The position numbers and the translations under genes were made by a program. From Candidatus Zixiibacteriota bacterium (GTDB lineage: Bacteria; Zixibacteria; MSB-5A5; GN15; FEB-12), in the NCBI GenBank assembly GCA_024280215.1, contig JAJRQO010000008.1, positions 62,001 to 126,000 on the forward strand: a stretch of 64,000 nucleotides of DNA. The letters are read 5' to 3'. Shown here piece by piece: positions 606 to 22,494 of the stretch. Within the stretch, counting starts at the first letter, position 1, and the number at the start of each line of letters is the position of its first letter. The notes under the pieces were generated by a model that did no database searches, was not told the origin of the DNA, and saw nothing but the letters and a program-made list of their open reading frames with translations.

Positions 606-1148
606 ATGGGTCTATTAAAATCAAAAATAGTTGTAATACCTCTTGGTGAAGTTGACTTCATGGTTGTCAATCGCTTAGCAGCAGAAATAGGTCCTGTTTT
701 TATTCGCTCGGTTGATATTCTCAAAGGGATGAAAATGCCCGTGGAGGCTCATAACATTATCCGCAACCAATACTATGCGACTGTACTTTTACAAAAGTTA
801 GAACGTTCCAAAGCGAACAGTCGTGAAATTGTTCTTGGGGTGTGCGAAGAAGATTTATATATCCCCGATGAACGAAATGTCATTGCCTACTGTGATACTC
901 TTGCGGGTACATCGGTAGTATCGCTTTATGAAATCAGGCAGGAGTTTTACGGACTTCCTGAAGATGATAAAAAGATTTTCCCTCGACTATTTAAAGAATC
1001 GGTTCATCAACTCGGACATCTTTTTGATTTGAATGATTGTCGTAATCCAAAATGTGTAAATTATTATTCACAGATGATGAACGACATAGATAACAAAACC
1101 GAAAAATTCTGCGACATCTGCAAACGCCAACTCACTGGTGCATTTTAG
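606..1148 (+). CDS. Archaemetzincin-like protein (M54 family) with degenerate catalytic motif
   Basis: The 180-residue length and C-terminal half match bacterial and archaeal archaemetzincins, zinc peptidases with the signature HExxHxxGxxHC followed by three more cysteines. Here the segment reads HQLGHLFDLNDC (H134-C145). The general-base Glu is Gln135, the Gly is Asp141, and the third zinc-ligand position is Asp144 instead of His. The four cysteines of the structural zinc site remain (C145, C150, C169, C172 in FCDIC). The residue after the second Cys-Val, usually Met, is Asn. The protein therefore probably folds and binds structural zinc but is unlikely to be an ordinary peptidase. It could be a pseudoenzyme with a binding role. 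It is the last gene of the plus-strand run and converges on the permease gene. Confidence 0.85.
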   Translation: MGLLKSKIVVIPLGEVDFMVVNRLAAEIGPVFIRSVDILKGMKMPVEAHNIIRNQYYATVLLQKLERSKANSREIVLGVCEEDLYIPDERNVIAYCDTLAGTSVVSLYEIRQEFYGLPEDDKKIFPRLFKESVHQLGHLFDLNDCRNPKCVNYYSQMMNDIDNKTEKFCDICKRQLTGAF

Positions 1149-11305: not shown

Positions 11306-13630
11306 CTAATATGGATTACCGCATGGAATAGGACCATTCGTAAACATATAATCTACCATGTAAACGACATCGGCAATATCAACTTTACGGTCACAGTTCA
11401 AATCACCTACTCTGAATTCTGGTATTGGTGGTGGTCCATCAAAAAAGAAATGTTCAACCATCAAGGTAAGATCATAAATATCAATAGTTCCATTCCAATT
11501 ATAGTCTCCTGCTAACTTCCAAACTTGTAATTCAAAAGTTACTTCTTGAGGAGAGTTTGATGCCTCGGTAGAATGCACCAAAATAGTATCATAGTATGTT
11601 CCAAGAGTTAAACCATTGGCAAGAACCAGTAGTTCTGTACTTCCTGGTACATTTCCTATAGTATCTTTTGGATAGAGCCATGAGAGATTTTCTTCAATAT
11701 TCCATTCCATACAACCACCATAAAGGTTGAATACGGTAAAGACTGAAGATTTGAAAGGTCCTTCATTTTCACGAGTTGGTATAACAAAATGAGTCCTTGG
11801 CAATACAATTTTGGGAGTTGTCACTCCAGCAATAACATTATATTTTACAATAATCTGCTGAGGAGAATTGATTGCATTTATTGCAGAAACAGTAATCGTA
11901 TCGTAGTATATACCAATCGGAAGTTGTAAGTCATTCGCAACGACAGAAACAAATTCAGGTATTGAATTGTTTTCAAACTCTAAGGTAAAAAGCTCTGACT
12001 CATAGTCAATTTGATATGAGTATGCTTCTCCCCCAACGACATTTCCAATTGAGAAAAATCCCTGAGGATTCAAAGCAAAAGCACCTTGGTCGCATTCAAA
12101 AACATCTACTTCAACAGTATCTGCTAATTCAATTTGAGCAGGAACATCTACATAGTGAAGTTGGAAAACAACGGGAAATGGAGAGTTTATAGCTTCGGGA
12201 GACGAAACCCATAAAGTATCAAAGAAATCATCACCAGCATTGTGTCCTAAAATTTTAAACCCGACTGAAACTGTATCAGGAGCTGTACCAGATGTCGGAG
12301 TGAGAGAAAATATCCTGGTAGAATTTTCAGAGAGAGAATAAGTCATCCCACCTGCTCCACCATTAAATATCACAATTTCACGATTTGGAATAGTAGAAAC
12401 ACCAGTCGGAACAATAACAAAATTGAAAACTGAATCAACCGCTATTAACGGTAAATCTGACCCTACCGATAAAATAACTGGAATTCTTATAGGGTCATTT
12501 GATGCTAATGGGTCAGAAACGATGATAGTATCAAAATAATCATTAAAACCTAATCCTGTTATATCGACTGAGACGGTCACATCACCAGAATTGACACCAG
12601 ATGATGGTGATAACGAAAGCCAACTTTCGCTATGAGAAACCGACCAATTCAAATCTGAACTACCAGCAATTGAATTTGAAATAGAAATAATTTTATCGGA
12701 AGGGTTTGCTTCACCAGCCACTGCATTAAAAAACAGATTCGACGGTGTCACGGCAATTGCTGGAGGTGGTTTTTCGACTACTAAGGTAATAATCATCCAT
12801 TGTGATGAGTTATCAGTAGTAGGGGCGATAACTTCAATTGAATCAATATATGTACCAGCAGATAAACCTGTCGGGTTTACCGTCGTCGTGATTTCTTGTC
12901 CAGAAGTTCCCTGCGTTGGACTAATAAAAATCCAGTTTGAAGACTCAACCAAGGTAAAGTCAAATGAATCTTGATCTGTCAATACTGAAAATATTTGTGA
13001 TGGAGGTGCTGTGGCACCTTCAATAGCTGTAAAATCTAAAAAATTAGGAGATAAAACTATATTAGATGGATCAGACGGTGCATTAGGATCAATAACAGTA
13101 TAGCAATGCGGTCCATCCCATGTAGGAAAATCTTCAGGCCCTGCCCATTTCCAAGTGCCAGACGGTGGATAAAATGCGGAGTCTAAACAAATTTGGGTTT
13201 TATGATACATAGCATCGACTGGACCAATACTAATCGTATATGCGATTTCATTAAAATTCGCTGGTAATCCCGAAGCAAATAACTTTGCTCCCCCAAAACC
13301 AACAGTGTCAGCACCTGAGCCAGTGATTGAAAAATGGTCAACACCATAAATCAAATCGAACAAATCTGACCATCCATGAGATATTGTATCTCCAACGGTT
13401 GTTGTCCACTCAGCCCCATCAGGAGAATATATTTGAAATCCATTTGTAATACCACTATGTGCGTTCGGTCCTGAGTTGATACGAAGATTAAATTGAACTT
13501 GTTGATTTACATAAATAGTATCGTTGCTAATACCACCAGTCACGCCATCAAGTGTAATAGCTTGAGAAAATACTTCTCCAACTGTAAATAGCATTATGAC
13601 GGTTAAGAGATAGACAGTTACTTTTTTCAA
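11306..13630 (-). CDS. Secreted multidomain protein: BACON/Ig-like repeats and C-terminal dockerin
   Basis: An exported protein of about 774 residues. The signal peptide reads MKKVTVYLLTVIMLFTVGEVFSQA if translation starts at the TTG at 13630. That TTG follows GGAGG with a seven-base spacer, whereas the ATG at 13648 has no ribosome site. An N-terminal region of about 170 residues is followed by five or so 90-100-residue beta-sandwich repeats. Two of them have the BACON-like pattern W-(I/L)-S-x-S-P-x-S-G, ending in (T)G-Y-x-D-(T/S)-I-x-V. The last 65 residues hold two calcium-binding dockerin loops, GDYNWNGTIDIYDL and GDLNCDRKVDIADVV. The role is probably surface or extracellular, in adhesion or complex assembly. 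No enzyme domain is visible. It is followed by a strong terminator and stands alone. Confidence 0.85.
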   Translation of the reverse strand: MKKVTVYLLTVIMLFTVGEVFSQAITLDGVTGGISNDTIYVNQQVQFNLRINSGPNAHSGITNGFQIYSPDGAEWTTTVGDTISHGWSDLFDLIYGVDHFSITGSGADTVGFGGAKLFASGLPANFNEIAYTISIGPVDAMYHKTQICLDSAFYPPSGTWKWAGPEDFPTWDGPHCYTVIDPNAPSDPSNIVLSPNFLDFTAIEGATAPPSQIFSVLTDQDSFDFTLVESSNWIFISPTQGTSGQEITTTVNPTGLSAGTYIDSIEVIAPTTDNSSQWMIITLVVEKPPPAIAVTPSNLFFNAVAGEANPSDKIISISNSIAGSSDLNWSVSHSESWLSLSPSSGVNSGDVTVSVDITGLGFNDYFDTIIVSDPLASNDPIRIPVILSVGSDLPLIAVDSVFNFVIVPTGVSTIPNREIVIFNGGAGGMTYSLSENSTRIFSLTPTSGTAPDTVSVGFKILGHNAGDDFFDTLWVSSPEAINSPFPVVFQLHYVDVPAQIELADTVEVDVFECDQGAFALNPQGFFSIGNVVGGEAYSYQIDYESELFTLEFENNSIPEFVSVVANDLQLPIGIYYDTITVSAINAINSPQQIIVKYNVIAGVTTPKIVLPRTHFVIPTRENEGPFKSSVFTVFNLYGGCMEWNIEENLSWLYPKDTIGNVPGSTELLVLANGLTLGTYYDTILVHSTEASNSPQEVTFELQVWKLAGDYNWNGTIDIYDLTLMVEHFFFDGPPPIPEFRVGDLNCDRKVDIADVVYMVDYMFTNGPIPCGNPY

Positions 13631-13859
13631 AAGAATGCCTCCATGCACTTAATTAAATTCGTTGAATTGTCTCTGTATTACATTTATGATTTCCACATCT
13701 TTTTTGATATGGTATCCAATATTTGATTTGTTTTCTTTTTATAATCTGAGCCAAAATAGTACGTACCCGAAATAAAACGGAGTATTCACACATCTTAAAT
13801 TAAAGCAAGTGTGAAGTAATTGTCAACAGTTTATATGCAGAATGTGAATGGTGGAAATA

Positions 13860-16385
13860 CTACGATTTTTTTGATGTGGTAGATTTTTTCTTGGTAGGTT
13901 TTGCTTTTGTTGCTTTTTTCTTGGCTGCTTTCGACTTGGTCGCTTTTGATTTTGCTGCTCTGGTTTTTCTTTTTGCTTTTTTCATCTCATCAGCAAATAT
14001 TTTTTCAAGCGTAAATGTCGATGGAGTAAAATCTAAGAGGCATAATTTAAAGAGATCATCAACTTCCTCAAGATAACTAATTTTTGTTTTTTTCAAAATT
14101 TCTTTTGGTAAGTCTTTGATTTCTTTTTCATTTGCTTTCGGAATTGCCACATGGTAAATCCCCGCTCTATATGCCGCCGAAATTTTCTCTTTTATACCGC
14201 CGACTTGCAACACTTTTCCTCGCAAAGTTACTTCTCCAGTCATGGCAATATCATTTCTAATTGGTCGCTCTGATAAAATAGATGCCAAGACCAAACAGAC
14301 CGTTACACCAGCAGATGGTCCATCTTTTGGGATTGCACCCGAAGGGAAATGAATATGAATATCAAACTCAGCAAAATCGTTAAAATCAATACCGAGTGCA
14401 TCAGCACGTGAACGGATATAGGAATGTGCCGCTTGGATAGATTCTTTCATTACTTCACCTAAAGAACCAGTAGAAGTAATCTGCCCTTCCCCACGCATTT
14501 TTATACCTTCAATAAACATTAGATCTCCGCCCGCACCAGTCCACGCCAAACCAGCAGCAATTCCGATTTCAGGTTTTTTCTCTGCTATTTCAGGAATAAA
14601 ATATGGAAGTCCAAGATATGTTTCCAAATTCTTTTCAGTTAGCACCCATTTATTTTTTTTACGAGTTACTTTTTCAAGAAGTACTTTACGAAATATTTTT
14701 TCAAGTTGTTGCGATAGCCCAAGAAGTCCTGCCTCTTGAGTATAGGTACTTATAATATTTGCGAGCACCTTGTCTACCAATTTAAATTCAGATTTTGATA
14801 TACCATGTTTTTTAAGCATGTTTGGAAGGATATACTTTTTAGTTATAGTAATTTTTTCTCTCTCAATGTACCCTGGTAGTTCCAAAAGTTCAAAACGTGG
14901 AATAAACTGTTCGGGTATTTCTTCATAAGAACGAACCGAACAGATAAAAAGCACTTTACTAAGGTCAAAAGGCATACCGATATAGTTATCTAAAAACTTT
15001 GAATTCAGTCTATTGTCCACAATTTCAAGCAAAGCCATATTAACTGACGAGTCATTTTCAATATTAAAATAATCTATATCCTCAATAAGCATCACAGGGT
15101 CTGAAGTCCCCGCATCACGAAGAGTCTGTATAATTTTTCCAGGCATCGCACCCAAGAAAGTCCGTGAGGTTCCTTTGAGTTCGCTAACATCAGCAATCCC
15201 TCCTACTGACACTCTTACAAAATCTTTGCCCAATGCGGTAGCAATAGCACGAGCGATAGCAGCTTTTCCAGTCCCCGAGGCTCCTATTAAACAAAGCGTT
15301 GGACCTTCATCTATACCGCCTAAATGTTTTCGTACAGAAAGTTTTTGTAAAATTTGGTCTTTGATATTTTTAGGTCCGTAGTAACCAGTTGAAAGTGCAT
15401 TTTCTATATCAGAAATTTTATATGTTTCAGGTGTAGATTTATTCCATGGAAGTTGTAAAATCCAATCAAGATAATTTTTGGTTATCCCAAATTCTGCCGA
15501 TGCTGTTGAAAGTTGTCCGAGACGGTCAGCTTCAATTAATGCTCGTGCCGAGACGGCACCTGGTAAAGTAGTATCTTTTTTAATTATATTTTTGTAATTG
15601 ATAGATGCTTCCTCCTCAAGGAACTCTTCCCCAAGCATCTTTTTAATTTCATGCAATTGTTGACGTAAAAAACTTTTCTCTTTTTCATCTTCAAATGATT
15701 GCTCAACATTACTCTGTATTCGGTGTAATGTTGCAACACGGTTTAACTCAGCAGTTAAATTATTCAACAGGAGTTTAAACCGTACACCTAAATCGACAGT
15801 CTCGAGTATTTCTTGTTGCGTCTCTAATGAAAGCCGAAAGAGAGAGACGGCAGTATCTGCCATAAGAGATGGGTCTTCGATAGACATTTTTAAGACTCGC
15901 AGATGTTCGCCAGTATAGTTCGGGTCAATCTTTGTTATCTCAGTAACTACTTGTAAAACTTGATTAATTTTTTCTTTGAGATTTTTGGGGACACGCTTAG
16001 ATGGTTGCATGAAATCAATTTTTGCCGTTATAAATGGTACTTCTTTGACCATTTCAGAAACCGAAACTCTTTTAAGCCCTTCAATAGTTGCAGTTACAGA
16101 ATTCCCCGCTCCCGCTTTTAAATCTCTTACAACTGCCAATACACCAATTTGGTGAATTGGTGCTAATTTGTCTTCAGTACGTTTTGCATGGGGTGAATAT
16201 GCGGTAACAAACTTCTTTGAATTATCGTAACATTTCCTGAGCAGTTCTAAATTTTCTTTACGCCCTACCTGAATAGTGATCATCGTTCCTGGGAACAAAA
16301 TACCAGTCTGCAAAGGTAAAACAGGGTAAACAGGCTGTTTATCTGTCATTTCAATTGAGAGTTTCTTTTTTGTCTTTATTATCAT
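13860..16385 (-). CDS. lon: Lon-type protease with altered AAA+ motifs and Lys/Ala-rich C-terminal tail
   Basis: The overall layout is Lon: N-terminal substrate domain (about 18-210), helical linker, AAA+ module (about 310-590) and S16 peptidase (about 600-785). The peptidase keeps Ser691 in PKDGPSAG and Lys734 in GGIKEKI, the catalytic dyad. The ATPase deviates at each key motif: Walker A is GASGTGKA (368-375, Ala for Thr/Ser), Walker B is LIEDID (433-438, usual LLDEID with acids exchanged), sensor-1 Asn is Arg485, and the YTREAGVR segment is YTQEAGLL. The pore loop TFLGAMPG and an Arg near the finger (IPRFE) are kept. The last 40 residues are Lys/Ala/Ser/Thr-rich like a histone tail. It may be an ATP-independent or differently gated Lon, perhaps a second copy. 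Confidence 0.9.
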   Translation of the reverse strand: MIIKTKKKLSIEMTDKQPVYPVLPLQTGILFPGTMITIQVGRKENLELLRKCYDNSKKFVTAYSPHAKRTEDKLAPIHQIGVLAVVRDLKAGAGNSVTATIEGLKRVSVSEMVKEVPFITAKIDFMQPSKRVPKNLKEKINQVLQVVTEITKIDPNYTGEHLRVLKMSIEDPSLMADTAVSLFRLSLETQQEILETVDLGVRFKLLLNNLTAELNRVATLHRIQSNVEQSFEDEKEKSFLRQQLHEIKKMLGEEFLEEEASINYKNIIKKDTTLPGAVSARALIEADRLGQLSTASAEFGITKNYLDWILQLPWNKSTPETYKISDIENALSTGYYGPKNIKDQILQKLSVRKHLGGIDEGPTLCLIGASGTGKAAIARAIATALGKDFVRVSVGGIADVSELKGTSRTFLGAMPGKIIQTLRDAGTSDPVMLIEDIDYFNIENDSSVNMALLEIVDNRLNSKFLDNYIGMPFDLSKVLFICSVRSYEEIPEQFIPRFELLELPGYIEREKITITKKYILPNMLKKHGISKSEFKLVDKVLANIISTYTQEAGLLGLSQQLEKIFRKVLLEKVTRKKNKWVLTEKNLETYLGLPYFIPEIAEKKPEIGIAAGLAWTGAGGDLMFIEGIKMRGEGQITSTGSLGEVMKESIQAAHSYIRSRADALGIDFNDFAEFDIHIHFPSGAIPKDGPSAGVTVCLVLASILSERPIRNDIAMTGEVTLRGKVLQVGGIKEKISAAYRAGIYHVAIPKANEKEIKDLPKEILKKTKISYLEEVDDLFKLCLLDFTPSTFTLEKIFADEMKKAKRKTRAAKSKATKSKAAKKKATKAKPTKKKSTTSKKS

Positions 16386-16647
16386 ATTTGCACCGTTTTA
16401 ATAGTATCGGCTAAAGTCACAAGAGCTGAATATTGTTACATAACTATTTTATATTATACGTTATTTTATATAATAATCCTTATCTTCTTTAACTAACACT
16501 TTAAATAAATTGTTTCACAAAACATATATTTTTTATCTTGTCTGAAATGAGAGATACCTTTAATTAAAAAGATTGAATAGGAACTCTTATAGAGATTAAT
16601 TGTTTAAGAAATTGATTAGGTTAACTCATTTTAAGTTTGGAGATAAT

Positions 16648-17160
16648 TTGAATACAAAAATAAATATTCGATACTTTACCAATGTACTCTTTTTTATTAT
16701 TTTTATCTTTTCTTTAAATACTGTTGCTAAAACTAACCCAAATTCAATCGATGAGTTAAAAAAGCTTATACCTGACTCTACTGTTATTGAGAACAAAGTG
16801 GTATATGTTGATTTTTGGGCTTCATGGTGTGTTCCATGTCGTAAATCGTTTCCATGGATGAAAGAATTATTGTCAAAATATAGTGATTCAGGCCTAATCA
16901 TTATTACTATAAATGTAGATAAAAATTTAAAAGCAGCTCAAAAATTCCTAACAAAGAATGACATCAATTCTATTCCGCTTTTTGATTCAAAAGGGGAAAT
17001 TGCTAAATCTTTCTCTCTTCAAGTTATGCCAACATCTTTTGTGTATAATAAGTCTGGTGAATTCGTCTTTAAACATGAAGGATTTAGCAATAAGGAATCA
17101 TCAGAGCTTGAAAAAAAAATAGTTACGCTTTTGCATGATGAGGATATAAAAGATGAATAA
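16648..17160 (+). CDS. TlpA/ResA-like exported thioredoxin
   Basis: An exported thiol-disulfide protein. The thioredoxin fold has WASWCVPCRKSFP (redox pair C61 and C64 from the chosen start) and the cis-Pro region VMPTSF. A signal anchor covers residues 1-28 (YFTNVLFFIIFIFSLNTVA). The TTG at 16648 follows GGAG with a five-base spacer and gives a good signal sequence. An upstream TTG at 16600 in the same frame is possible but lacks a ribosome site. The stop overlaps the DUF4266 gene by eight bases, so it is translationally coupled to it. Within this cluster it may reduce or form disulfides in the Cys-containing DUF4266 lipoprotein, or deliver electrons. It could also be a CcmG-like partner of the ccm genes elsewhere in the window. 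Confidence 0.88.
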   Translation: MNTKINIRYFTNVLFFIIFIFSLNTVAKTNPNSIDELKKLIPDSTVIENKVVYVDFWASWCVPCRKSFPWMKELLSKYSDSGLIIITINVDKNLKAAQKFLTKNDINSIPLFDSKGEIAKSFSLQVMPTSFVYNKSGEFVFKHEGFSNKESSELEKKIVTLLHDEDIKDE

Positions 17161-17386
17161 TTCAAAGTGGCACGTACTTTTAATTTTAATAATACTTTTA
17201 ACTTTTATTATTTCAGGTTGTACTTCTTTAGGCGTAAATGTCTGGGAACGCGATATTTTGGCATCTCCACATATGAAGCTTGAGAAAAACGCTATTGAAC
17301 GTGAAATGGATGATCACATTTATTTCAGCAAAGAGGGTTCAAGCGGTGGTAGAGGATTTGGTGGAGGTGGTTGCGGATGCAACTAA
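17153..17386 (+). CDS. DUF4266 small lipoprotein with GGGGCGCN tail
   Basis: A 77-residue protein with a lipoprotein signal: hydrophobic 8-20, then ISGC with lipidated Cys23. The mature part has the conserved DUF4266 stretch (LGVNVWERDILASPHM) and ends in a Gly-rich tail closing with CGCN (C74, C76). As far as I know DUF4266 is uncharacterised but travels with DUF3570, ApbE and thioredoxin-like genes. It sits between the thioredoxin-like gene (eight-base overlap) and the DUF3570 gene (ten-base overlap). The GGAGG needed to start DUF3570 is built into the glycine codons of this tail. The CxC end could bind metal or be the thioredoxin's substrate; that is inference. Confidence 0.88.
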   Translation: MNNSKWHVLLILIILLTFIISGCTSLGVNVWERDILASPHMKLEKNAIEREMDDHIYFSKEGSSGGRGFGGGGCGCN

Positions 17387-18639
17387 ATAAACAACTTTCT
17401 ATCAAAAGTGCTTTAGCAATTGCAACTACGGTACTTTTAGGAGCTCAAATTGCAAAAGCTACCGACGTGGAGTCAACTCTATTAATCTATTCTGAAAAAG
17501 ACAGGGTCTCCGCGGGTGAGGGGGCTGTTTCTATAAAACATGAACTAAACGAAACTCAAAATATTAAAATCAAACTCACTTTCGATGCCCTTACTGGAGC
17601 TTCTCCCAACGGAGCCGCTCCTGCAAGCAGTGTACAAACATTTACACGCCCTTCAGGAAATGGTTCATATGATATTCAACCAGGGATTATTCCACTTGAT
17701 GATACTTTTAAAGATTCAAGATTTGCTGTAAGTGGAACGTACACGAGAAAACTTAGTAGATTAAACAATTTTTTTATAGGTGCTAATTTTTCAGGTGAAC
17801 ATGACTATACTTCTTTAGGAGTCAATACTGGTTTCAGTCGTGATTTTAATAATCGAAATAGAACCATATCAGTTTCAGTATCATTCACTTCAGATAAAGT
17901 AAATCCTGAAGGCGGCGTCCCAATACCTTACGATACTCTTGCTTTGATAGGCGAATCAACATCTCGCTTAGGTCCGAATGCCACTAAAAAAGTCTATGAT
18001 CTTCTTTTGGGTGTTACTCAAACTATAAATCGTAATACTCTCTTCCGAGCTAACTATTCCAGGTCTCACTCAACTGGGTATTTAAATGATCCTTACAAAT
18101 TTTTTAGCGTCGTTGAAAATAGTTCTTCCGCAAATCCTGGAGAACCTTTGACATATCTTTATGAAAACAGACCTGATGCAAGAAATAAAAATTCAATCTA
18201 TACGCAATGTCGAAAATTTCTTAATGGGAATGTAATAGATTTATCTTATAGGTTTTTTTGGGATGATTGGGGTATCAATTCGCATACAATCAATCTGTTT
18301 TACTTGTTCGATTTTAAAAACAATACAACATTAGAACCGCATATACGCTGGTATCATCAATCAGCAGCCGATTTTTATATCCCTGTCCAGATTGATGGTT
18401 CCTCAAACCAGCAATTTACAACTGCTGATTATCGTTTAAGTACATTTTCCGCTGTTACCCTTGGTTTACAATACTCTATCCCTATGCAAGCAACTCATAC
18501 TTTAAAATTATCATTTGAATATTATAGACAGTTTGGAGATAGCAGTCCCCCCGGTTTAATTGGCTCTTTATTAAGATATGATATGTTTCCAACTTTAAAT
18601 GCTGTAATGTTTCGCGTCGGTTACAATTTTAGTTTTTAA
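17377..18639 (+). CDS. DUF3570 outer-membrane protein with ApbE-type flavinylation motif
   Basis: A 420-residue exported protein. The signal peptide (about 1-28) ends in AQIAKA, followed by alternating beta-strand sequence and a C-terminal aromatic strand (FRVGYNFSF), typical of outer-membrane beta barrels. Near the N-terminus it has DALTGAS (D70-S76), which matches the Dxx(S/T)GA(T/S) consensus of ApbE substrates. Thr73 (codon 17593-17595) would carry the FMN. The apbE gene follows immediately. The ATG at 17377 is preferred over the TTG six bases upstream because GGAGG lies nine bases before it. The cluster suggests a covalently flavinylated barrel taking part in electron transfer across the envelope. 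Confidence 0.87.
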   Translation: MQLNKQLSIKSALAIATTVLLGAQIAKATDVESTLLIYSEKDRVSAGEGAVSIKHELNETQNIKIKLTFDALTGASPNGAAPASSVQTFTRPSGNGSYDIQPGIIPLDDTFKDSRFAVSGTYTRKLSRLNNFFIGANFSGEHDYTSLGVNTGFSRDFNNRNRTISVSVSFTSDKVNPEGGVPIPYDTLALIGESTSRLGPNATKKVYDLLLGVTQTINRNTLFRANYSRSHSTGYLNDPYKFFSVVENSSSANPGEPLTYLYENRPDARNKNSIYTQCRKFLNGNVIDLSYRFFWDDWGINSHTINLFYLFDFKNNTTLEPHIRWYHQSAADFYIPVQIDGSSNQQFTTADYRLSTFSAVTLGLQYSIPMQATHTLKLSFEYYRQFGDSSPPGLIGSLLRYDMFPTLNAVMFRVGYNFSF

Positions 18640-19532
18640 TGAATAAGCCTTATAAACTTTCATATAAAAATTCAATTTGGACTTGCACTTTTCAAGCTAT
18701 GGCAAGTCCATGTGAAGTTTTATTTATATCATCTTCTGAAAAAGATGCAAATTTATTTGCTGAGTTTACTTTTGATGAAACAAAACGAATAGAATCTAAA
18801 TTCAGTAGATATCTTCCTGATAATATCGTTCATAAGATAAATTCTTCAAATGGTTTCAAAATTGAAGTAGACGAAGAAACTAGTCGTATGCTCGATTTTG
18901 CCAATCAATGTTATCAGCTTAGTGATGGTTTGTTTGATATCTCATCTGGTCTTTTAAGAAACTGTTGGACTTTTGATGGTACGGAACAAACACCTGATAA
19001 AGATAAACTTTCCACTATGCTGAAACTTATTGGTTGGGATAAAATCAATTGGGAACCTCCACATATACAGCTACTATCTGGCATGGAAATTGATTTTGGT
19101 GGAATTGGAAAAGAATATGCTGTTGATCATGTGGCTGATATAGCACTTTCTTTTAAAATTTCTAAAGTGATGGTAAATTTTGGAGGTGACATCAGAACAA
19201 TTAATCCAGATTTAGACTCACCTCCATGGGTTATAGGGATTGAAAATCCAAACAAAGAAAATTCAGCAATTGGCAAGATCAGCCTACATAATGGAGGTAT
19301 TGCAACAAGTGGTGATTCTAAAAGGTTCTGTTTACATCACGGAAAACGATTTGGACATATATTAAATCCAAAAACTGGTTATCCTATTGAAAATGCCCCA
19401 ACTGCTGTTTCTGTTGTATCTGAAAACTGCACCCAAGCGGGAATTATAGCTACTATTGCGATGCTCCATGGAAAAGATGCTGAACAATTTCTTGAGTCAC
19501 AAGAAATTACCTTTAAATGTTACAGAGATTAA
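18639..19532 (+). CDS. apbE: FAD:protein FMN transferase (ApbE family)
   Basis: ApbE moves FMN from FAD to a Thr or Ser of exported proteins. Family landmarks are AMASPCEV near the N-terminus, DFGGIGKEYAVD, NFGGDIRTI, GGIATSGDSKRF and HILNPKTGYP. The usual C-terminal metal-binding Asp-Ala-x-(A/S)-Thr segment reads AGIIAT here, so Asp is Gly while Thr is kept. At 297 residues it is slightly short at the C-terminus. No clear signal peptide is seen, unlike many ApbE lipoproteins, so its location is uncertain. Its ATG overlaps the DUF3570 stop (TAATG), which strongly implies that DUF3570 is its substrate. Confidence 0.9.
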   Translation: MNKPYKLSYKNSIWTCTFQAMASPCEVLFISSSEKDANLFAEFTFDETKRIESKFSRYLPDNIVHKINSSNGFKIEVDEETSRMLDFANQCYQLSDGLFDISSGLLRNCWTFDGTEQTPDKDKLSTMLKLIGWDKINWEPPHIQLLSGMEIDFGGIGKEYAVDHVADIALSFKISKVMVNFGGDIRTINPDLDSPPWVIGIENPNKENSAIGKISLHNGGIATSGDSKRFCLHHGKRFGHILNPKTGYPIENAPTAVSVVSENCTQAGIIATIAMLHGKDAEQFLESQEITFKCYRD

Positions 19533-19587: not shown

Positions 19588-22296
19588 TTAATTCAAATTA
19601 TTCATCTGTCTTGATTCAAACAAAGTGCGGACTTCATAGTCAGGATGGTTTTTGATATTATCCAAATTGATTGAAATCTTCGATGGGTCAACATTCAGAC
19701 GATAATAACCTAAACGGTTGTTTTCAAAAATTGACCAATTGGAGTTTAAGTCACGTCCGACTTCATTTTTCATACGATACAAGTACCGAGCCTGATTAAA
19801 ACCATTTTCAATTTCTTCTTTGTAAATCCAACCCGATTCACCATATAAACGAGACCAAGCAAGTTTCACAAAATACTTAAATGACTTCCCTGTCAGACGA
19901 ACAGGCAGTCCATTAATTTTTACTAAATAACGTTCACACTCATACGAGCCATCAATTTCAATCATTTCTGGTTCGCCAAACATCATTGATACAAGCCCGG
20001 CATCATTTGCTACAACATTATTGGTCCTAGATTCCATCTGAACCTCCTCTTTAATTAGTTCTATTTTCTCGTTGATTTTCATTAACTTATCTTTTCCGCC
20101 AAGAAATAATAATTGGATTGATTCTTCCATACGGCAAAAATCATCCAAACTCACAATACTCGCATTTTGTAATATCGTAAAATCTGACCGAGTCAGCATA
20201 TCTCCAAAACTTCCATATATCTCCCGATACTCAGACGGTAATCCAAACCGCAAAGAAAAGGATAAATCGGCTAAATTTTTCTTTAGCTGTATATCACGTT
20301 CTTCTGCTTGTATCAATTCTGAAAGGGCTATCATAAGATGTCCCGCAGTTTCGCCAAGCGAAACAATCTGTCCAAGATGTATTTGAAAGCGTTCTTCCAA
20401 AACTTGCACTGGCACTAACTGACGCCATTGCTCAAGCAACATCAACGCTTTTAAAGAAGCCATCTGACGATAGGAAAGTTGCTTTTGTTGAAAGTCATCA
20501 CCCAATAGCACTTTGGTATCGTCAAGATATAATTCATATTCCTGATAGAGCATCCGAAGCGGTGCTTCGGAAAGTTGTTCATATCGACTCAAAAGAGACG
20601 ACGGCATCAGCCAGCCTGCCCCACTCAAAACAAGTGCGAGCCAACCAAAATCTGTCGTAGTTTTTTGTTCATTGATAACATAGCGATAGTATGTTGCCTC
20701 ACTCACCGAAAGGCTGTGCTTAGCAGTTGCCAAGCCAAACGGAGTCACCGATAACAACGAAGTCGCCTTGTTTTCAACTATCATCCCAAGCATAACAAGC
20801 TGGTCAAAGAGTGCCGAAAAATCATTTGATTTGTCAACCCCCAATAACCCTGAAAATGTTTGAGAAAATAATAGCTCAGCATCACTCTGACTTTTTGTTT
20901 GAATCAGGCCTGTTGCCACCATATTCAAAAGCCAGTCTTCAATCGGACGAGAATAAAAAGCCGACCCAAATTCTTCTGGTTGGTCACAGGAGATATAAGA
21001 ACTCCAGAGAATATCACGGTCAAACTCCGATTGTGCCATAACAATTGCTTTTCCAACAGCAGGTGAATTTTCTGCGTGATACCGTCCCGCCCGTCCAGTC
21101 ATGTTATCAAATTCCGCTCTGCTTACTGGAACCAACGACGGTTTGCCACCATACGTTCCACTGGCATATTTAACTGTTTCAAGATAAACTGTATCGGCTG
21201 GTAGATTAACGCCCATAGCTAAAGTAGTAGTTGAGAAGATTGCTCTAATCTCTTTATTTATAAATGCTTGTTCTACAATATTTCGTTGTTTTTGCGTCAA
21301 GTCAGCGTTATGAAAGGCAACTCCATGCTGTAAAGCCTGCTTGAGCGAACGGAGTAAAAAGGATGGCTCTTCGGCGGAGAGTTTGTCTATCGCATTGGTC
21401 GCTTTTTTCCAGTCGACCATGTAGGCTAACTTGAGAGCGGCATGCATCGTCTCTGAGCGTGACTTGAGAAAGATGAGTGTTGATCCAGAACTTGCCTTGA
21501 CCTGCCCAACAAACAGCTCAAATGAATCCATAGAAGGATCTGCCGATGCAAACGGCTCTTCACCGTCAATATGACCATTAAATGAGCGAAAACGATACGT
21601 CCCTTCAGTTGCAACACCTCGAATCAACTCAACGGGACGAATCCGTTCTTCAACAACGGTCGCATCAAGCCACGATGCTAATTTACCAGCCGACGAACTG
21701 TCATCACCAATTACTGCTGACAGCCCAAGAAGTGATGGCTTGTAGACCGAGCTTTTTATTTTGGTCAAAAGTTGCTCAAGCAATGCCCCTCGACCAGGCT
21801 CGGCGATTGTTTGAATTTCATCAACGACGACTAAACCAATATTTTTTAATATATCTAACGACGATGTCAGGAAACTGTCAAATTTTTCATAGACACAGAG
21901 TGCGATGTCATAGTCACCAGCGTGAAAGAGAGAATCATTTTCGGGATAATCACCTGTGAGAATAAGCGACTTAATACCAAGTGGACTATATGTTGCCTGA
22001 CAGACTTTATATTTTTCTTCAATAAGTGATTTTAATGGAAAGAGCATGACAACTTTTTGACGAGAGGCAAGCGACTGGATCGCCGCCATTTCAGCACAAA
22101 ATGATTTGCCTGATGATGTTGGTGCTGAGATAATCATATTATGCTCCTTTCGTTTTTGCCATTCGCTCGGGTTGCCGAGCAGTTTTTTTCGAACCGCTGT
22201 TTGCTGGACTGGTAAAAGATGCTCACCTTGACACATCCGCCATGCCTCAATCACACGAGTCGGTATTCCGTATTTTTCTAATTCGCCCACTTTCAT
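19588..22296 (-). CDS. Ski2-like DEAD/DEAH-box helicase
   Basis: A superfamily 2 helicase of about 902 residues. Motifs, numbered from the ATG at 22296, are Walker A APTSSGKS (58-65), motif II DEIQ (159-162), motif III GLSAVIGD (about 191), motif V STTTLAMGVNLPA (355-367) and motif VI NMTGRAGR (398-405). This order resembles Ski2/Hel308/Brr2-type enzymes, which unwind RNA or DNA. About 400 further residues follow with no clear known domain. The frame is open for 62 more codons upstream, but that stretch translates an intergenic palindrome cluster, so the later ATG is chosen. No strong ribosome site precedes it. The gene lies behind the Cys-rich gene and its operator-bearing promoter and may be co-regulated. 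Confidence 0.85.
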   Translation of the reverse strand: MKVGELEKYGIPTRVIEAWRMCQGEHLLPVQQTAVRKKLLGNPSEWQKRKEHNMIISAPTSSGKSFCAEMAAIQSLASRQKVVMLFPLKSLIEEKYKVCQATYSPLGIKSLILTGDYPENDSLFHAGDYDIALCVYEKFDSFLTSSLDILKNIGLVVVDEIQTIAEPGRGALLEQLLTKIKSSVYKPSLLGLSAVIGDDSSSAGKLASWLDATVVEERIRPVELIRGVATEGTYRFRSFNGHIDGEEPFASADPSMDSFELFVGQVKASSGSTLIFLKSRSETMHAALKLAYMVDWKKATNAIDKLSAEEPSFLLRSLKQALQHGVAFHNADLTQKQRNIVEQAFINKEIRAIFSTTTLAMGVNLPADTVYLETVKYASGTYGGKPSLVPVSRAEFDNMTGRAGRYHAENSPAVGKAIVMAQSEFDRDILWSSYISCDQPEEFGSAFYSRPIEDWLLNMVATGLIQTKSQSDAELLFSQTFSGLLGVDKSNDFSALFDQLVMLGMIVENKATSLLSVTPFGLATAKHSLSVSEATYYRYVINEQKTTTDFGWLALVLSGAGWLMPSSLLSRYEQLSEAPLRMLYQEYELYLDDTKVLLGDDFQQKQLSYRQMASLKALMLLEQWRQLVPVQVLEERFQIHLGQIVSLGETAGHLMIALSELIQAEERDIQLKKNLADLSFSLRFGLPSEYREIYGSFGDMLTRSDFTILQNASIVSLDDFCRMEESIQLLFLGGKDKLMKINEKIELIKEEVQMESRTNNVVANDAGLVSMMFGEPEMIEIDGSYECERYLVKINGLPVRLTGKSFKYFVKLAWSRLYGESGWIYKEEIENGFNQARYLYRMKNEVGRDLNSNWSIFENNRLGYYRLNVDPSKISINLDNIKNHPDYEVRTLFESRQMNNLN

Positions 22297-22349
22297 AACA
22301 CATTGCCCGCTTTCTCTTGTTGCTTTCCCTCTCCTGCTTATTGCTCTTC

Positions 22350-22478
22350 GTAGGGAGGAACCCTTTAGTGGTTCCGCCATCATCTTTGGCGGAAATGCTA
22401 AAGATTTCCACCCTACTGTTCTACCACTTGTACCGACAGGGCATTGCCCTGTCTTTTCGGAACAGGCAAGCCTGTTCC
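22350..22478. repeat. Composite palindrome cluster upstream of the helicase
   Basis: Three palindromes follow each other. A 67-bp unit runs from GTAGG at 22350 to CCTAC at 22416 and contains GGAACC/GGTTCC and GGCGGAAA/TTTCC sub-arms. GACAGGGCA/TGCCCTGTC follows with perfect 9-bp arms (22435-22453). GGAACAGGC/GCCTGTTCC closes it with perfect 9-bp arms (22459-22478). They are probably mobile intergenic repeats, and they keep an accidental open frame running into the helicase. Confidence 0.8.
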
Positions 22479-22494
22479 CCACAAAGTATGCTTA

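Follow-up and report, generated by a model that had tools for sequence, protein, structure and literature searches.

A candidate LonA paralogue with degenerate ATPase motifs and a conserved Ser-Lys dyad in Candidatus Zixiibacteriota

Introduction

Among ATP-dependent proteases, Lon is the textbook single-chain example. Its LonA and LonC types are told apart by the residue before the catalytic Ser, which is Pro in LonA and Asp in LonC (PMC9569914). LonB combines an Asp before the Ser with a LonB-type AAA+ module that has a membrane anchor. LonC, a family listed with only eight members (PMC9569914), is represented by MtaLonC of Meiothermus taiwanensis and Thermus TTC1975 (S16.007). It has eroded AAA+ motifs and a retained Ser-Lys dyad, lacks the LonA N domain, carries two insertions in the protease domain and groups near LonB. 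The ATP-independent MtaLonC shows no ATPase activity; it binds ATPgammaS and breaks down unfolded proteins (PMC3391209). Within LonA, the Walker B mutant E424Q is ATPase-deficient and peptidase-active (PMC11986505), and an Arg acting in trans has been described in PIM1 (PMC8913295).

Here we describe a lon gene in a 64,000-nucleotide stretch of DNA, referred to as the window, from a 3.0 Mb genome (96% complete) of the phylum Candidatus Zixiibacteriota, which belongs to the FCB group.

Results

A LonA architecture with altered ATPase motifs

An open frame with an ATG start at 13860-16385 on the minus strand encodes an 841-residue protein (P0001). By Pfam it has the full LonA architecture, with the N domain at residues 20-210, the AAA domain at 364-499, the lid at 525-578 and Lon_C at 582-783. 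The match to NCBIfam TIGR00763 (endopeptidase La) scores 693 bits against a cut-off of 608. Given this equivalog match above the cut-off, databases will call the protein ATP-dependent, and automatic annotation thus places the label "endopeptidase La" on a protein whose ATPase is probably dead. The features of the gene are as follows.

13860..16385, minus strand: third-type lon gene (degenerate-ATPase LonA), 841 residues, from the ORF and Pfam
15756..16328, minus strand: LonA N-terminal substrate-binding domain, residues 20-210 (PF02190)
15261..15284, minus strand: Walker A GASGTGKA (368-375), with Ala in place of Thr and the P-loop Gly and Lys retained
15132..15167, minus strand: pore loop 1 SRTFLGAMPGKI (407-418), aromatic kept as F410
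15072..15089, minus strand: Walker B LIEDID (433-438), ED in place of the canonical DE
14931..14933, minus strand: sensor-1 position, Arg485 (E. coli Asn473), from the alignment
14895..14897, minus strand: Arg finger R497 (E. coli R484), kept, from the alignment
14721..14741, minus strand: sensor-2 segment TQEAGLL (549-555), without both Arg, from the alignment
14313..14315, minus strand: catalytic Ser691 in PKDGPSAG, from the alignment, conserved in 64/64
14184..14186, minus strand: catalytic Lys734, from the alignment, conserved in 64/64
14178..14180, minus strand: Ser736 (E. coli L724), a canonical-invariant protease position lost throughout the clade
13908..14030, minus strand: clade-specific C-terminal extension LLDFTPSTFTLEKIFADEMKKAK, with a predicted helix at 790-826
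13863..13970, minus strand: Lys/Arg-rich C-terminal tail, residues 806-841

Alignment to E. coli Lon bore out the motif changes read in the initial annotation (GKA, LIEDID, R485 and TQEAGLL beside an intact S691/K734 dyad), coordinates included. In the Walker motifs K362 corresponds to K374, T363 to A375, D423 to E435 and E424 to D436. In the sensors and finger N473 corresponds to R485, R537 to Q550, R542 to L555 and R484 to R497. The dyad residues S679 and K722 correspond to S691 and K734, and R408, within the pore loop 1 stretch, preserves E. coli R396.

P0001 resembles LonA in its domain order, with N-terminal LON, AAA+ and Lon_C in one chain, in the motif PKDGPSAG with Pro before the Ser, and in the 42-residue spacing of Ser and Lys; its identity to LonA chains of solved structure is about 32-38%. 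LonA keeps Walker B, sensors 1 and 2 and the Walker A Thr, whereas P0001 has canonical forms of none of these. By its sequence the protein appears to be a LonA by descent and not a functional ATP-dependent LonA. Canonical AAA+ motifs are likewise missing from LonC, but P0001 has Pro690 before the Ser and a LonA N domain, and the LonC insertion after the Lys helix, CX3GLX(G/E) (PMC3391209), is absent from it in the LonA alignment. Membership of LonC was ruled out by the Pro, in place of Asp, and by the LonA architecture. LonB was rejected as well, with no LonB AAA match in Pfam, matches to PF00004 and Lon_lid, and Pro before the Ser.

The host genome also encodes two canonical LonA proteins, on contigs C30 and C42, with every motif intact (GPPGVGKT, LDEID, TAN, and TREAGLR or TRESGVR); the initial annotation had proposed a search for one such second copy. 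A separate gene (L004, G000:C13) encodes an AAA_32/LonB-lid Lon-like protein, which brings the Lon-family proteases of the host cell to four. Like P0001, L004 fuses a Lon_C protease to an atypical AAA module, but of another AAA family, on the LonB/LonC-like side.

Distribution and ancestry of the third Lon

Relatives that share the same changes, for which the initial annotation had also proposed a search, were found, and 64 members were aligned. We surveyed genomes within the phylum for proteins nearer to P0001 than to canonical Lon, here called third Lons, and numbered the families f1 upward. Judged by best-match identity, which is 53-85% where the copy is intact, a third Lon occurs in 53 of the family's 55 genomes, a count that includes fragmentary copies. 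At order and class level most relatives have one at 37-52% identity, and none was seen in families f6 and f14-f17. The third Lon thus appears to be an extra Lon alongside the normal Lons in most Zixiibacteriota.

The motif comparison comprised 64 third Lons and 26 canonical LonAs (25 from the same phylum and one from E. coli). When the ATPase motif columns were left out of the tree, one branch with SH-aLRT 100 separated 48 third Lons from the 26 canonical Lons. P0001 has the Pro before the Ser and the 42-residue Ser-Lys spacing of LonA, and the dyad itself is present in 64/64 third Lons. These sequence relationships indicate that the third Lon is a monophyletic clade, probably an ancient LonA paralogue of the Zixiibacteriota, in contrast to LonC with its position near LonB. 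The third-Lon frame lacks an N domain in f12 and part of f13 (L074, L075, L076); in L076 the adjoining ORF is no detached N domain but encodes a cyclophilin. A search of the open literature, with few subscription papers and no preprints, found no earlier account of a degenerate LonA in Zixibacteria.

Stepwise loss of the ATPase motifs

The only catalytic residues present in every third Lon are those of the protease, with the catalytic Ser in 64/64 and the catalytic Lys in 64/64. The P-loop GxxGxGK, including the Walker A Lys, is kept in 62/64, and Gly356, Gly359 and Gly361 (E. coli numbering) in 64/64. The Walker A Thr or Ser remains in 21/64, with Ala in the other 43/64. At Walker B, Asp occurs in 5/64 and Glu in 4/64, and the pair DE in 0/64. 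The sensor-1 Asn473 is kept in 2 and lost in 62 of the 64, and of the sensor-2 residues R542 is kept in 6 (lost in 58) and R537 in one. The pore loop 1 aromatic and the Arg finger are retained in most third Lons: R484 is present in 53/64 and lost in 11/64, on several branches, and R396 is kept in 56/64. All 26 canonical LonAs keep the Ser-Lys dyad and K362, T363, D423, E424, N473, R484 and R542, and have at R537 22 Arg, 2 Lys and 2 other residues. As an outside control, DE, N473 and R484 are kept in 76/76 LonAs from viral contigs.

The replacements differ between families. The E424 position is occupied by D, G, Q, P, N or E, and the N473 position by R, T, K, S, L, Q, E or D. GKT persists in f18-f19, with GIGKT and EE in f19, whereas f1-f5 have GKA, with ED in f1. 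Some families (f10) combine GKT and DD with a retained Arg finger, so that residual hydrolysis is possible there. The losses were stepwise within the clade and not a single event: the Walker A Thr to Ala change is late, and Walker B and both sensors are gone almost throughout. Together with the loss of R484 on several branches, this means that the ATPase-poor state was reached by partly different routes in different families. The claim that the four losses arose together and not by decay therefore stands in its second part, which purifying selection and conservation across the phylum favour, and not in the simultaneity.

Because 64 homologues share the loss pattern and 26 canonical LonAs do not, chance or error was ruled out. 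In some relatives (L050) the frame is split within the N domain, as might be expected of random decay, a pseudogene or an assembly artefact. Such an origin is extremely improbable for a phylum-wide clade whose frames are mostly intact, with a complete dyad in all 64 members, omega well below 1 and normal canonical copies in the same assemblies; we rejected it on the monophyly, the motif pattern and the inverted domain constraint described below.

Retention of the P-loop Gly and Lys together with loss of the Mg-binding, catalytic and sensor residues favours a ring that holds nucleotide without turnover, a pattern that fits the proposal in the initial annotation of a Lon that binds ATP and does not hydrolyse it normally. 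Walker B motifs with Asp at the catalytic-base position occur in AAA+ proteins of the DnaA type, and by analogy D436 could act as a catalytic base. The third Lon might then still be an ATP-dependent protease, slow or switch-like, with a reorganised site in which R485 makes a new phosphate contact. In f1 the new residues are fixed, with IEDID and SVR nearly invariant, sensor 1 is R or K in 39 of the 43 members with GKA, and the P-loop is kept. We nevertheless find this unlikely, since the Thr and Asp that coordinate Mg are altered together with the Glu and both sensors, and the residues vary between families, unlike a conserved new mechanism.

The retained arginines bear on another alternative, that third Lons enter mixed rings with canonical LonA as hydrolysis-dead subunits that supply the Arg finger to the ATP site of the adjoining subunit, along with extra peptidase sites and the tail. 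R484 and R396 are mostly kept although the protein's own catalytic residues are gone, the trans-acting Arg of PIM1 (PMC8913295) is a precedent, and a canonical LonA accompanies the third Lon in the genomes examined. Canonical LonA is, however, near universal, which makes the co-occurrence uninformative, and with R484 lost on several branches mixed rings seem unlikely.

Inverted constraint between domains

Domain identities were compared over the 66 pairs of 12 genomes that have both Lon types, pairs that are not independent. Third Lons share 31% identity in the N domain, 43% in the AAA core, 44% in the lid and 67% in the protease, as compared to 59%, 83%, 59% and 61% in canonical Lons. The constraint is inverted: the AAA core is most conserved in canonical Lon and the protease in the third Lon. 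Third Lons retain 95% of the canonical-invariant columns of the protease and 57% of those of the AAA core. L724, two residues past the catalytic Lys, is the only canonical-invariant protease position absent from all third Lons. The helix that bears it contacts the ATPase, and the loop after it is the LonC insertion site (PMC3391209). Within the genus, purifying selection acts on all domains, with omega 0.015-0.11 where computable; synonymous sites are saturated, and we take dN/dS as evidence of purifying selection only.

A C-terminal extension and basic tail

An extension beyond the protease, followed by a Lys/Arg-rich tail, is found in 64/64 third Lons; LonA lacks this conserved C-terminal helix and basic tail. 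The f1 consensus of the extension is xxDFxPxxxTLEKIFAEEIEKAKK. The last 25 residues contain on average 12.5 K/R in third Lons vs 6.8 in canonical Lons. An AlphaFold2 model from P0001 and 8 orthologues was discarded (pLDDT 49). A 52-row alignment gave a Lon-like fold with pLDDT 82, a fold that is partly built in by the 43 rows that are canonical Lons. Confidence in the predicted helix at 790-826 is moderate to low, with pLDDT about 56-71 up to residue 820 and lower beyond.

Gene neighbourhood

The usual upstream neighbour of the third lon in f1-f5, f9 and f10 is a helicase gene.

19588..22482, minus strand: Ski2/Hel308-like SF2 helicase

The listed GTG start of this gene probably lies too far upstream: the alignment to relatives begins around residue 60, and the true start is probably near residue 63. 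A partnership in which the helicase supplies a motor or delivers nucleoprotein substrates would suit the basic Lon tail and the arrangement in these seven families, where 24 of 25 loci have the helicase gene upstream in the same orientation and the remaining locus is cut by a contig end. We regard it as very unlikely: the helicase adjoins the third Lon in 0/18 loci outside this sub-clade, some of them short, and it occurs phylum-wide with or without a third Lon, as in f14-f17, which have none. An obligatory partnership was rejected on these grounds, and we treat the adjacency as a lineage-specific arrangement, not as mechanism. The deep families have no common conserved neighbour (cyclophilin, TldD/PmbA and a response regulator occur).

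In the window, thioredoxin-like, DUF3570 and ApbE genes (16600-19532, plus strand) lie between helicase and lon on the opposite strand. This cassette, also found in L040, looks like an insertion, as helicase and lon are adjacent in most relatives. A probably secreted BACON-domain protein (11306-13648, minus strand) is conserved downstream of lon in many relatives, and an archaemetzincin-like M54 peptidase is encoded at 606-1148 (plus strand). A role in anti-phage defence was rejected; PADLOC gave only weak BrxL similarity for Lon and generic HamB helicase similarity for its neighbour.

Discussion

The explanation we favour, with a probability of roughly 0.64, is that the AAA+ ring of the third Lon has become a non-hydrolysing or nearly non-hydrolysing scaffold around an active Ser-Lys peptidase, and that the ATP-driven role is left to the two canonical LonAs of the same cell. 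A Lon-type ring would still assemble, and the retained P-loop would bind nucleotide or phosphate without any ATP-driven unfolding. Unfolded or disordered substrates or peptides would thread passively to the chamber and be degraded there, as in the ATPase-dead LonC; the precedents of LonC and Lon E424Q point to a peptidase ring for substrates of this kind. The Lys/Arg-rich tail may tether the enzyme to a polyanion such as DNA, RNA, the ribosome or polyphosphate.

Two considerations pull against a passive scaffold. The LonA peptidase is governed by nucleotide state, and loss of the ATPase cycle could leave the peptidase off. The pore loop 1 aromatic and the Arg finger, both mostly kept, would be superfluous in a purely passive ring. 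It is also conceivable, if improbable, that the third Lon forms a new LonA-derived subfamily independent of LonC, in which the scaffold senses nucleotide, the basic tail keeps the protein on nucleic acid and the motor, if any, comes from outside (helicase or canonical Lon). The initial annotation had allowed that such residues might be normal in a broad, active Lon subfamily; the subfamily is indeed broad, and we found no literature report of measured activity.

On the favoured reading of a non-hydrolysing scaffold, the third Lon would work like LonC, convergently, and the comparison suggests that the clade would be a second path to an ATP-independent Lon. E424Q is an engineered single change, whereas the loss in the third Lon is natural, multi-site and phylum-wide. 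Members of the clade form a natural series in which the protease stayed fixed and the motor was dismantled stepwise, beginning with the sensors and Walker B and ending with the Walker A Thr. Such a series allows a test of which ATPase elements the peptidase truly requires. The pattern suggests that the third Lon carries out proteolysis without ATP-driven unfolding.
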